From Candidatus Woesearchaeota archaeon (GTDB taxonomy: Archaea; Nanobdellota; Nanobdellia; Woesearchaeales; UBA525), in the NCBI GenBank assembly GCA_013331575.1, contig DUGD01000003.1, forward strand, positions 1,135-18,988: a DNA stretch of 17,854 nucleotides. Reading direction: 5' to 3'. A program made the translations under genes and the position numbers. This document shows positions 5,144-14,330 of this stretch, piece after piece. Each line of letters begins with the position of its first letter. Within the stretch, counting starts at the first letter, position 1. The notes beneath the pieces are model-generated. The model was not told where the DNA came from, did no database searches, and worked only from the letters and a program-made list of their open reading frames with translations.

Positions 5144-5244
5144 CCTGTTCGACAGCGGTATTCCTTTAAGAATATTTTGGTGATTTCGATAGTGTTATTT
5201 GGCGTTACTGCCGGATAGCATCCGCTCTCATTATTTGGAAGAAC

Positions 5245-5316
5245 GTCCCCGCCCGGATTTGAACCGGGGACCTCGTGGTTAACAGCCACGCGCTCTAACC
5301 GCTGAGCTACAGGGAC
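5245..5316 (-). tRNA. tRNA-Asn (GTT)
   Basis: The 72-nt cloverleaf on the minus strand has acceptor GTCCCTG/CGGGGAC (with one G-T pair), D arm TAGCTCAGCGGTTAGAGC, anticodon stem-loop GTGGCTGTTAACCAC (anticodon GTT), and T arm CCCCGGTTCAAATCCGGG. CCA is not encoded. Confidence 0.96.
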
Positions 5317-5438: not shown

Positions 5439-5479
5439 CGGGCCGTACGTCGGACCACAGGTCAGCGCCGGTAAACGCT

Positions 5480-5487
5480 TTTATATG
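5480..5487 (+). promoter_or_regulatory. TATA box of the RecA1-less Hel308 gene
   Basis: The sequence tttatatg is centred about 25 nt before the ATG at 5508, predicting a leaderless mRNA. It shows that the shortened helicase gene has its own promoter and begins where it appears to begin. Confidence 0.7.
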
Positions 5488-5507: not shown

Positions 5508-7160
5508 ATGCCACACACATTCGAGCTTCCGCAATCATACCCTGATGCGGCGCTCGCCATAGCGATGGACACTATCGTGCGGGACAAGCAAGCGCTTGTC
5601 TTCTGTAGCACGAAGAAAGGTGCGGAGAGCCAAGCGGAGAAGATAGCGCAGAAGGTCAAGATCAAAGGGGCCTCGCAGGCGGATGCTGCACAGGTGGGTG
5701 TCGCGCGCGAGGCTGTCTTGGCGGAGATAGCGCAGTCCATACTCGACGCCGTGAACTCCCCCACGAAGCAGTGCACCCGTCTCGCCGCGTGCGTACGCAA
5801 AGGCGTCGCGTTCCACCATAGCGGTCTCGCCTCGAAGCAACGCGAGATCGTCGAGACTCGTTTCCGCGACGGCACGATCAGCGTGATATGCGCCACACCG
5901 ACGCTTGCCATGGGTATGGACTTGCCCGCGTTCCGCAGTGTCATACGCGACCTCAAACGCTTCAACAAGGGGACGAGCTGGGGCATGTCCGAGATACCGG
6001 TGCTCGAGTACGAGCAGATGGCGGGCCGTGCCGGGCGACCGGGTAAGGAGACTGCAGGCGAGGCCATCTGCATCGCCGAGACTGAAAGCGAGCGGGATCG
6101 CATTGTCGAGCGTTACCTGCTCGGCGACCCTGAGGAGATCCACAGCAAGCTCGCGGTCGAGCCGGTGCTGCGCACATACGTCCTCTCGCTTATAGCGTCG
6201 GGCTATGTGCATGATGTTGAAGAACTCTACGCGTTCTTCGACGGGACATTCTATGCGTGGCAGTACGGCGACACCGATAGGCTCCATGAGATACTCGACA
6301 GGATGGTGCGGTTGCTTTCGGATTGGGGTTTCGTCGAAGCGCCTGCTGGCGGGTACGATCGTGGCGTCGGCGGTGGTTTCGTCGTCGCTAGCGACATGGC
6401 GGCCGGCGTATTGCGCTCAACGCCTGTCGGGCAACGAGTGGCGCAGCTCTATATCGACCCGTACACCGCGCACCACCTCATCGTCTCGCTCGAGCACGCC
6501 CTCGCGGCCGGTCTGCAGGTCGATGGTTTCGCGCTCTTGCATCTGCTTTCCACCACGCTCGAGATGCGACCTCTCCCTTCTGTGAAGCAGTCTGAGCTCG
6601 ACGATATCGATCGATTGGTGGTGGAGCGCGAGGATGCTCTTATCGTGAAATCTCCGTCGATATACTCGCACGAGTACGAAGAGTACTTGCAATCGATAAA
6701 GGTCGCTGCATTCCTGGAGGGGTGGATCGAAGAGTTAGGCGAAGATGTGTTGCTCGAGAGTTTCGGTGTGACGCCGGGAGATCTCCAAGCGAAGCGCACG
6801 ACTGCCGATTGGCTGCTCTATTCTCTCGTCGAGCTATCGAAATTGGAAGGGTGGCATTCTCTCATCGCCGGTCTCGAGCGGATGCGCGTCCGTTTGGAGT
6901 ACGGCGCGAAAGAGGAACTGCTCGCGCTCCTGCGTCTCAAGGGAATCGGCCGCGTGCGCGCGCGAAAGCTCGTGCACAACGGCGTAAGATCGATCGAAGA
7001 TGTGAGGCGCATCGATGCGACTCATCTCAAGATGTTGTTAGGCGAAAAAATGGCCATAGACCTGAAATCGCAAGTGGGGCAGGAGATAGCTCCTTCGAAG
7101 ATCGTTGTTGCGCCTAACAAGCGGAAAGGACAGGTGAATCTCGGCGATTTCGGTGAATGA
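5508..7160 (+). CDS. Hel308/Ski2-like helicase lacking the first RecA domain (C-terminal half)
   Basis: This 550-aa protein lines up with Hel308 from just before motif IV to the C-terminus. It contains ALVFCSTKKGAES (29-41, motif IV), AFHHSGL (101-107), VICATPTLAMGMDLPA (126-141, motif V) and QMAGRAGR (170-177, motif VI). These are followed by the winged helix, the ratchet domain and a helix-hairpin-helix (LLRLKGIGRVRARKL, 474-488). Full Hel308 is about 700-750 aa. The missing N-terminal 200 or so residues are RecA1, with Walker A and DExH, so this polypeptide cannot be a helicase alone. The cut is at the domain boundary, the frame is intact and a TATA box precedes the ATG. This suggests a split gene whose RecA1 half lies elsewhere, or a specialised non-ATPase paralogue. 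No Walker A motif occurs in this window. The C-terminus (QVNLGDFG, 542-549) resembles a PCNA-interacting box. Confidence 0.88.
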   Translation: MPHTFELPQSYPDAALAIAMDTIVRDKQALVFCSTKKGAESQAEKIAQKVKIKGASQADAAQVGVAREAVLAEIAQSILDAVNSPTKQCTRLAACVRKGVAFHHSGLASKQREIVETRFRDGTISVICATPTLAMGMDLPAFRSVIRDLKRFNKGTSWGMSEIPVLEYEQMAGRAGRPGKETAGEAICIAETESERDRIVERYLLGDPEEIHSKLAVEPVLRTYVLSLIASGYVHDVEELYAFFDGTFYAWQYGDTDRLHEILDRMVRLLSDWGFVEAPAGGYDRGVGGGFVVASDMAAGVLRSTPVGQRVAQLYIDPYTAHHLIVSLEHALAAGLQVDGFALLHLLSTTLEMRPLPSVKQSELDDIDRLVVEREDALIVKSPSIYSHEYEEYLQSIKVAAFLEGWIEELGEDVLLESFGVTPGDLQAKRTTADWLLYSLVELSKLEGWHSLIAGLERMRVRLEYGAKEELLALLRLKGIGRVRARKLVHNGVRSIEDVRRIDATHLKMLLGEKMAIDLKSQVGQEIAPSKIVVAPNKRKGQVNLGDFGE

Positions 7161-12353: not shown

Positions 12354-14327
12354 TTAGATGTATGGTATGTCCTTGCGTTCTTTGATGCCGCTTATGTGCA
12401 GATAGTTCCAGAAGATGCCGTGACGTACCTTCACGTTCACGACGAACCCCGCTTCTGCGAAGACTTCCCGTACAGTATCGATATTGGAGAGCCATTTCGG
12501 GTTGGGCAAGATGTGGAACATGTCGATGTACTCCACGAAATAGATCTGTCCTCTGCGCGGCATGATGTCGCCTATCTCCCGCAGGACCTTCTTCACATCC
12601 TGGATGTAGCTGAGATGATTGATGCTGATGACGATATCGGCGTATTTTATCGATGGGTGGACTCTGTTCACCAGGTGCGGATCGTGGATGGCCTCCACGT
12701 GCAAGTGGCCGTTCTTCTTCACGCGTCGTTCGAGTATGTTCCTATCCGCCTCGCTTAGTCCCACCGCGTAGATCTTCCCTTCGCTACCCACATGTTCCGC
12801 GAGGTGGAGCGTGAGCGTCCCCACGCCGCTGCCGAACTCGAGCACATGCTTGCCGTTTGCATTGTGCAACATCGATAGTATCTCGTGTCTGATGCGTCGC
12901 GGAAGAAGAAAGTTCTCGAGCAGGAGATTGATCTGCGAGAAAAAACTGAGTGTCCCGATGAGCTTGTCGGGATCGTAGAAGTACGATAAGAGGAGGTAGA
13001 TCGGGACGCTGAAGAAGACGAAACTGCCGAGCAAGCGCAATTGGCTTATCGCTGCAGGATCGCCCATTGTCCAGAGGATGAGCAGCGCCACGAAGAATCC
13101 CGCCACGAACACGGGCAGCACACTGCCTAGCGGCGCGCGGAATTTGCGTTCCTTATCGGGCAATCGCCATCGGAAATACGGCACGAGGATGATTATTGCA
13201 GCGTATAGCGTGAGGCTCACGGGCACGAGAAGACCGAGGAGCTGCGCGTACATCCCGCCGCCTTTCGCGTTGGGGCCTGCGAATGCGATGAGCACGATGA
13301 TGATGGAAACGATGGCCTGGAAAATAATCGCCTTGTGAGGTGTCTGGCGCCGCGGGTGGATGTCTGCGAATTGCTCGATGAAGAGCTTGTCGCGGCTCAT
13401 GGCGAGCAAAAGCCTTGGAAGGCTCACTGTGTTGCCGCTCGCGTTGCCGAGGATGGCGACCACGATGCCCACCGTGACTATCGTGATGAGTATCGGGATA
13501 GCCTCGATGTGCTGGAGTACTGCGAGCATGATGTTCGTGTCGCTCGCAATCACTCGCCCCGTGCCCAGCACACCTATCGTGACGATCGCTATCCCGAGCA
13601 TCATGAGCGCGACGAACGCAGAGACTGCGACGAGCGCGCGTGGCACCACCCTCGCCGCATCCTCCGTCTCCTCGCTCATATACGACGCGGATTCCCATCC
13701 GAAAAACGTCTCGGAGAGGAAGAACACTGCGAGCATGATGCCGCTCCACTGGAGCGCAAAGCCACTCAGGTTGGCGATCTCTATCTCAGTTGAACCGGGC
13801 ACTATCACCGCGAGCATCACCCCTACCATGAATATCGATAGGAGGATCATGATTCTGGCGCTCGCTTCAGCGCCGCGATAAGCGATATAGTTGAGCAGAA
13901 GGATGATCGTGACTGCGAGCATCATCTTCGCAATTGCGGCGCTCACGAAGAGCGTCCCGATGAAGAATCCGCTCGCGGGAATGACGCTATCGGGTAATGC
14001 ATTGATCGCCGCCACAGTGAAGAGTGCTGTGGCGATGTTCCCCGCGACCCAGAGCGTCCAACCGATGAGGAAACTCACGAACCTGCCATAGCCCTGCTTC
14101 GCGAATTCGTACACTCCGCCCGCGCTGGGGAACATGCTCGTGAGCTCACCGAAGCACGTGGCGATGTATATGCTCAATGCCGCGAGTATGCCCCATGCGA
14201 TGAGGCTATCGACCCCTGATTGCTGCGCGCCGATGACCACGCCGAAGAACATCCCTGTGTTGACGAGATTGAGGAATGCGATGGCCGCAATCATCCAAAA
14301 GCCCATCGTTTTCTTGAGCTCGGCCAT
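12354..14327 (-). CDS. APC-family permease fused to a SAM-dependent methyltransferase
   Basis: A single 657-aa frame. Residues 1 to about 450 are an amino acid/polyamine permease: around 12 hydrophobic segments, with the N-terminal FLNLVNTGMFFGVVIG substrate-site region, GELTSMFPSAGGVYEFAKQG, and SYMSEETEDAARVVPRA after TM6. After a linker and amphipathic helix (about 453-490) comes a class I methyltransferase of about 165 residues, with motif I HVLEFGSGVGTLTLHLAE (494-511), a strand-2 region KIYAVGLSEADR and ADIVISINHLSY (563-574). There is no break between the parts, and the last permease helix runs straight into the linker. The methyltransferase would sit in the cytoplasm at the membrane; substrate and transported solute are unknown. 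Two ATGs are adjacent; the second (14327) gives better spacing from aggtgag (14331-14337). Confidence 0.88.
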   Translation of the reverse strand: MAELKKTMGFWMIAAIAFLNLVNTGMFFGVVIGAQQSGVDSLIAWGILAALSIYIATCFGELTSMFPSAGGVYEFAKQGYGRFVSFLIGWTLWVAGNIATALFTVAAINALPDSVIPASGFFIGTLFVSAAIAKMMLAVTIILLLNYIAYRGAEASARIMILLSIFMVGVMLAVIVPGSTEIEIANLSGFALQWSGIMLAVFFLSETFFGWESASYMSEETEDAARVVPRALVAVSAFVALMMLGIAIVTIGVLGTGRVIASDTNIMLAVLQHIEAIPILITIVTVGIVVAILGNASGNTVSLPRLLLAMSRDKLFIEQFADIHPRRQTPHKAIIFQAIVSIIIVLIAFAGPNAKGGGMYAQLLGLLVPVSLTLYAAIIILVPYFRWRLPDKERKFRAPLGSVLPVFVAGFFVALLILWTMGDPAAISQLRLLGSFVFFSVPIYLLLSYFYDPDKLIGTLSFFSQINLLLENFLLPRRIRHEILSMLHNANGKHVLEFGSGVGTLTLHLAEHVGSEGKIYAVGLSEADRNILERRVKKNGHLHVEAIHDPHLVNRVHPSIKYADIVISINHLSYIQDVKKVLREIGDIMPRRGQIYFVEYIDMFHILPNPKWLSNIDTVREVFAEAGFVVNVKVRHGIFWNYLHISGIKERKDIPYI

Positions 14328-14330
14328 CAT

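Follow-up and report, generated by a model that had tools for sequence, protein, structure and literature searches.

A Hel308 helicase split into two unlinked genes across a woesearchaeotal order

The window analyzed here is a 17,854-nucleotide stretch of a contig from a Candidatus Woesearchaeota archaeon whose genome assembly (G000) is 74.6% complete and consists of 99 contigs. On the plus strand of the window lies an open reading frame that starts with ATG and runs for 550 codons without interruption (Table 1), in agreement with the clean frame described in the first-pass annotation. When the 550-aa protein was compared with the PDB using phmmer, the top match was Hjm/Hel308 (2zj2; E value of 2.1e-77; chain residues 230 to 681). 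The top four matches were all Hel308/Hjm structures, with the best stretch beginning at chain residue 230 to 277, so that RecA1 was left entirely unmatched. Pfam identified Helicase_C, Helicase_dom4_arc, and HHH_5, and together with the 2zj2 alignment these assign to the protein the winged helix, ratchet domain, and helix-hairpin-helix (HhH) that follow RecA2 in Hel308. Neither Walker A nor DExH was seen on inspection of the sequence. The locus had been annotated as a Hel308 without RecA1, and hence without these two motifs, that keeps RecA2, winged helix, ratchet, and HhH, and the PDB, Pfam, and sequence data bear this out; its start, which had been put about 20 residues before motif IV, is 27 residues before QALVFCST. 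Two close relatives of the protein encoded on other contigs (95%, 545 aa, contig 6,518; 92%, 544 aa, contig 19,589) both begin with MPHTFEL and therefore share the start of the window protein.

Table 1. Positions of the two predicted Hel308 half genes and of associated features (window coordinates unless a contig is given)
Feature	Position	Strand	Remarks
tRNA-Asn	5244-5316	minus	Upstream of the C-half gene, opposite strand
TATA-like TTTTATAT	5479..5486	+	About 25 bp upstream of the C-half ATG; putative promoter
Predicted C-terminal subunit of split Hel308 (C-half), 550 aa	5508..7160	+	RecA2 (first residues lacking), winged helix, ratchet, and HhH
First residues MPHTFELP	5508..5531	+	Supposed second hairpin strand after RecA1, facing the N-half tail (from alignment)
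Motif IV, QALVFCST, residues 28-35	5589..5612	+	Q28 and F32 invariant in 53 aligned sequences
Motif IVa, AFHHSGL, residues 101-107	5808..5828	+	[FY]HH[AS]G in 50/50 intein-free C-halves
Motif V, TPTLAMGMDLP, residues 130-140	5895..5927	+	TPTLA and G136 invariant (n=53); intein site in some relatives
Motif VI, QMAGRAGRP, residues 170-178	6015..6041	+	Q170, G173, R174, G176, R177, and P178 invariant (n=53)
C-terminal KRKGQVNLGDFG	7119..7154	+	PIP-box-like motif
Predicted N-terminal subunit of split Hel308 (N-half), 220 aa	G000:C44:1049-1711		TPTASGKT (Walker A), DEIH, SATIGN (SAT); ends GVYLNGKIEFV-stop

When the same genome was scanned for the DEAD domain, a 228-aa open frame on a contig other than that of the window ranked first. 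The stand-alone RecA1 protein found there, read as 220 aa with Walker A, DEIH, and SAT motifs, is the partner that a two-piece Hel308 would call for; its best PDB match was again 2zj2 (residues 7 to 213; E value of 5.8e-63). On the NCBIfam profile PRK02362, which has 739 positions, the N-half covers positions 6 to 217 and the C-half positions 224 to 709. The two halves scored 439 and 282.3 bits, below the equivalog cut-off of 887, but this cut-off does not discriminate the split form, since the fused Hel308 proteins of the phylum also fail to reach it (0/371 genomes). The database entry for the identical 220-aa protein represents three contigs, the longest being 29,987 bases compared with 9,459 for the contig used here. 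An intact Hel308 was not found in the window's genome. The frame that matched the C-half next best, 694 aa long and on contig C36 with 29% identity over residues 30 to 276, was ruled out because a DSHCT domain replaces the Hel308 C-terminal domains. This frame (L002:613-2694) is an intact Ski2-like helicase in its own right, and frames of about 630 to 710 aa with similar matches are present in many relatives.

The motif labels in Table 1 follow from QALVFCST, TPTLAMGMDLP, and QMAGRAGRP, which we take to be motifs IV, V, and VI, respectively. SF2 helicases normally have both RecA lobes on one chain. Motif IVa is named in a Hel308 study (PMC10484726). Motifs were counted in a set of 56 C-halves, one of them the lone C-half of genome G428 described below, with the fused fragment of G176 excluded. 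Of the 50 intein-free C-halves, 44 had the TPTL of motif V and 48 had motif VI as QxxGR[AG]GRP, the other two having GRCGRP, and Walker A, DExH, and SAT were present in the N-halves without exception (62/62). The Hel308 motifs I to VI and IVa are therefore all present once the two chains are counted. A feature expected of Hel308 that was absent is the location of both RecA domains on a single polypeptide; in this order they are encoded by two unlinked genes. In six relatives (L186, L187, L188, L191, L192, and L193) the C-half gene contains a large intein-like insert in motif V, after TPTL (gene coordinates include L186:919-4026, L187:1228-4236, and L192:1176-4322). In three of these C-halves, those scanned with Pfam, domains for intein splicing and of the LAGLIDADG type were confirmed; such a half-helicase would need to splice itself before pairing.

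The position of the break was defined relative to PfuHjm, in which domain 1 comprises residues 1 to 197 and domain 2 comprises residues 198 to 399 (passages of PMC2636818). The PDB alignments place the break at about PfuHjm 216/225, some 20 residues into domain 2, and since residue 202 of the N-half corresponds to Pfu residue 198, the N-half extends about 19 residues beyond RecA1 into domain 2. The original proposal was that exactly the first RecA domain is missing and that the break is at a domain boundary. RecA1 is indeed missing, but the cut lies inside RecA2, about 20 residues past the RecA1/RecA2 boundary. The resulting N-half tail, WRPVKLxKGVYxxGxIEF, is the start of RecA2 in one-piece Hel308. 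Side-by-side alignment of the fused protein of G069 (GIYTNSEIDFFNEKENIKLEE) with GVYLNGKIEFV / MPHTFELP indicated that no residue was lost at the break, and the two new ends would form a hairpin with one strand on each chain. Within the tail, D200, W202, R203, P204, and L207 were invariant in 44/44 split rows and F219 was conserved in 93%. Set against the 28 fused relatives, the tail looked newly strengthened in the split set, but a change as large was seen in 67/687 compared windows, and a gain as large or larger in 178/685 when only the ten nearest fused relatives were used. The idea that the tail was newly strengthened after fission was therefore rejected; the ten nearest fused genes are about equally conserved at this site, which argues that the tail has been retained rather than newly constrained.

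The TATA box that had been noted before the C-half ATG was found as a TATA-like element (Table 1), and the C-half transcript may be leaderless. TTTAWAWW-like boxes (at least 7 of 8 positions) located 24 to 28 bp before the start were present in 26/56 C-half genes and 29/62 N-half genes, compared with 2.9 and 3.3, respectively, in shuffles. The N-half start in the window's own genome is preceded by GGAG and by a same-strand gene. At the other end of the C-half, [KR][KR]xGQxx[LMVI] occurred within the last 30 residues of 40/56 C-halves but of none of the fused relatives (0/28), and the looser PIP-like pattern Qxx[LIMV]xx[YFW] occurred in 43/56 C-halves and in 4/28 fused relatives (G080, G180, G295, and G334). 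PfuHjm has a C-terminal PIP box, according to passages of PMC2636818, and the PIP-like C terminus of the split form is a candidate counterpart.

The distribution of the split was determined in 100 genomes of the phylum, for which at least 80% completeness was asked, with the window's genome (74.6%) among them; 74 of the genomes belong to the order, are mostly named Candidatus Woesearchaeota, and range from 0.6 to 2.1 Mb in size. In a full-length profile search whose matches were listed down to an E value of about 1e-56, both halves were found in 66/74 order genomes, the N-half only in 5/74, the C-half only in 2/74, and neither in 1/74, among the matches listed. A fused hel308 was found in 0/74, again among the matches listed. 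The search was repeated at an E value of ≤1e-3 for the eight order genomes lacking one or both halves; no stand-alone C-half was found by this permissive profile search in the five N-half-only genomes, which are 96 to 100% complete by estimate. Among the 58 genomes nearest to the window's (itself counted), a stand-alone N-half was found in 55 (absent from G007, G036, and G051) and a stand-alone C-half in 51. Eight genomes had both halves on one contig (G017, G020, G074, G090, G109, G115, G121, and G134), and there the spacing was 21.0 kb or more. Of the best 80 matches in a collection of named records, 61 were titled Candidatus Woesearchaeota, and the rest were titled Nanoarchaeota, Nanoarchaeia, DPANN, Euryarchaeota, or archaeon.

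The fused genes found were all in other orders. A survey of 371 phylum genomes gave 35 fused matches, extending over both RecA domains, at an E value of ≤1e-150, a threshold that an intein-interrupted fused gene could miss, and every one of them was outside the order; three (G176, G276, and G349) were without the first 37 to 101 profile positions. No split Hel308 was found among 26 other members of the class, of which 7 had a fused gene and 19 had no match at an E value of ≤1e-28. A full-length copy in relatives, which would have spoken against the split, was thus not found in the order, and the same break was found order-wide. In the order of G069, a full-length Hel308 frame was observed in just 5/99 genomes, a sixth, in G176, being a fused gene truncated at the end of its contig, and loss or absence of Hel308 is apparently widespread there. 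The same 99 genomes included one lone C-half, in G428 (70% complete; L128 / L189).

Given the incomplete and fragmented assembly of the window's genome, a truncated pseudogene, a misassembly, or a break at a contig end was considered as the source of the short gene. As a control, the related helicase aLhr2 was searched for in the 74 order genomes and was recovered in one open frame in 61 (55 as a single match and 6 as two stretches), partly matched in 4 (G067, G073, G093, and G094, at contig ends according to the coordinates), and without a match at an E value of ≤1e-40 in 9. The intact aLhr2 in 61/74 of the same genomes indicates that the Hel308 split is not assembly damage, the break is the same in the 66 genomes with both halves, including single-contig ones, and the close relatives on other contigs share the start. 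We therefore rejected an artifact, whose probability is negligible, and the earlier view that this is no random truncation was upheld.

For the phylogenetic analysis, 47 genomes with both halves were collected, of which G014, G025, and G047 were left out of the tree and distance sets because of an intein, stop codons, and a long frame, leaving 44 split pairs. Of 33 fused loci with an N terminus, five (L118, L119, L121, L122, and L123) were dropped by a BLAST score threshold, leaving 28. The tree, built from these rows and the lone C-half of G428, contained only Hel308 rows and was obtained by a quick search with no bootstrap, unrooted or with a midpoint root. A single change was needed to account for split and fused forms. 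The split rows and G428 were on one side of a branch with an SH-aLRT value of 95, and their neighbors were the fused genes of G069, G288, G407, G416, and G424, which belong to other orders of the class; on this unrooted tree of Hel308 rows, split Hel308 thus groups with the fused Hel308 of other class orders. The C-half of G428 was placed inside the woesearchaeotal rows, its exact place being without starred support, and may represent a binning error or a transfer. The tree indicates a single fission of hel308 on the line to the woesearchaeotal order. Both pieces in most genomes of the order, a common breakpoint, and a single origin are what is expected of a split protein, and the sequence comparisons indicate that Hel308 is split order-wide in these archaea.

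We considered whether the two halves, being encoded by unlinked genes, have since gone separate ways, the C-half now binding forks or junctions independently of ATP and the RecA1 half working with another partner or in another role. The C-half was undetected in seven genomes with an N-half (G012, G013, G019, G099, G112, G120, and G130), and the C-half alone was present in two (G058 and G100), as might be expected of such divergence, but these nine one-half genomes are in about 10 to 120 contigs, whereas both halves were present in 12/12 order assemblies of six contigs or fewer (among the matches listed). The correlation between N- and C-half distances, a possible sign of co-evolution, was weaker in the split set than in fused Hel308 (r of 0.45 versus 0.83; 0.42 versus 0.62 when range matched). 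The relative rates of the halves nevertheless nearly equal those of fused Hel308. The median N/C distance ratio was 0.721 in the split set (946 pairs) and 0.726 in the fused set (378 pairs), which suggests that fission had little or no effect on how strongly the lobes are constrained relative to each other. In addition, motifs V and VI, which are expected to matter only opposite RecA1, are strongly conserved in the C-halves, and the N-half retains a tail that belongs to RecA2. We consider it improbable that the halves have diverged in this way, and the earlier suggestion of a non-ATPase derivative of Hel308 is not favored, since the C-half retains motifs V and VI and has a RecA1 partner available.

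The halves could also be joined after transcription or translation, by trans-splicing through split inteins or at the RNA level. Split genes are known in the phylum (passages of PMC3655853) and some relatives have inteins within the C-half, but these inteins sit at motif V, roughly 130 residues from the C-half start. Measured from the first residue of the WRP motif, the N-halves run for 18 to 26 residues in 60/62 cases and for 41 to 42 in the other two, too short a stretch for an intein piece, and joining by a split intein was rejected for this reason. In many C-half genes, moreover, the start codon has a TATA-like box at the customary spacing before it. We regard joining in either form as highly unlikely.

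These results led us to the interpretation that Hel308 very probably consists of two subunits here, with the window gene encoding the larger one and the ATP site lying between two polypeptides. With the pieces encoded far apart in the genome, the ATP-driven motor is probably put together from two proteins. A two-polypeptide Hel308 with RecA1 made elsewhere had been raised as a possibility from the window alone, and it is now supported by the RecA1 gene in the same genome, by the genomes with both halves, and by the single fission. The sequences show that hel308 was severed by one fission, some 20 residues into RecA2, on the branch leading to the woesearchaeotal order, and that its two parts have persisted as distinct genes at unlinked sites, many of them preceded by a TATA-like box. 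RecA1 and the WRPVKLxKGVYxxGxIEF tail make up the small subunit (220 aa), and the remaining RecA2, winged helix, ratchet, and HhH make up the large one. On the assembly of the two chains that we infer, the tail would add a strand to RecA2 of the large subunit, and RecA1 would dock on the other domains in the manner of Hel308 structures. RecA1 would also bind ATP, with the site completed by motifs V and VI of the large subunit, motif VI being expected to supply the arginine finger. The assembled pair would act as a 3'-5' helicase on forks and D-loops, in keeping with the 3'-5' translocation and substrates of Hel308 given in passages of PMC10484726, and a PCNA tether through the PIP-like motif of the large subunit is possible.

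In Hjm, the tunnel for the unwound strand is formed by domains 1, 3, and 4, and ATP sits on domain 1, next to the cleft that separates it from domain 2 (passages of PMC2636818). With this geometry, the RecA1 subunit of the split enzyme must close not only the tunnel but also the ATP site. A further proposal, to which we attach a rather low probability, is that the helicase is assembled on DNA, with the large subunit (RecA2 hairpin, winged helix, ratchet, HhH, and PIP-like motif) binding forks on its own as an open cradle and RecA1, the product of a separate gene, docking as a lid. If so, RecA1 would close the single-strand tunnel and supply the ATPase, allowing loading without threading or ring opening, and the supply of RecA1 would switch Hel308 between a passive binder or annealer and an active helicase.

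The two genes combined contain the same domains and motifs as archaeal Hel308/Hjm (PRK02362, PRK00254, and NF040935; 2zj2 and 2p6r), the difference being that the latter is one polypeptide whereas the split form is encoded by two unlinked genes and cut about 20 residues into RecA2. No report of a split Hel308 was found in open-licence PMC papers, represented mostly by passages. A similar case is the Large helicase-related protein of Nanoarchaeota (NEQ003-409 / Nst172-239), which is also a helicase in two pieces and from a related lineage, although it is a different helicase cut at different sites in two species, whereas Hel308 is cut at one site in a whole order (passages of PMC3655853). YprA-family helicases are likewise of SF2 type and sometimes encoded by several genes, but these are in operonic order and in defense systems rather than unlinked genes for a repair helicase (passages of a preprint, PMC12458937). 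Gene fission has likewise been kept in Woesearchaeota and relatives for Dph1/2 and other DPANN proteins; unlike split Hel308, split Dph1/2 has no motor with an ATP site between the pieces (passages of PMC6349945).

If the two-subunit reading is correct, the covalent tie between the RecA lobes was severed once and has stayed severed throughout the order, without a shift in how well the lobes are conserved relative to each other, and split Hel308 would be a natural test of whether covalent lobe linkage matters for translocation. It may also be a starting point for controllable Hel308 motors, Hel308 being used in nanopore sequencing (passages of PMC10484726). Annotation can miss such a split protein, as the halves carry generic or hypothetical names: "DEAD/DEAH box helicase" for the N-halves and "helicase-related protein," "helicase," or "hypothetical protein" for the C-halves.

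Three further observations were made. In one 798-aa protein (P0094), a C-half shares its frame with an AsnC-type domain (PF01037), either as a fusion or through an assembly join. In G136 and G138, from another order, aLhr2 was in two frames or shortened, possibly owing to inteins or representing another split helicase. In the window itself, a 658-aa open frame on the minus strand (12354-14330) combines an amino-acid permease with a C-terminal methyltransferase domain.
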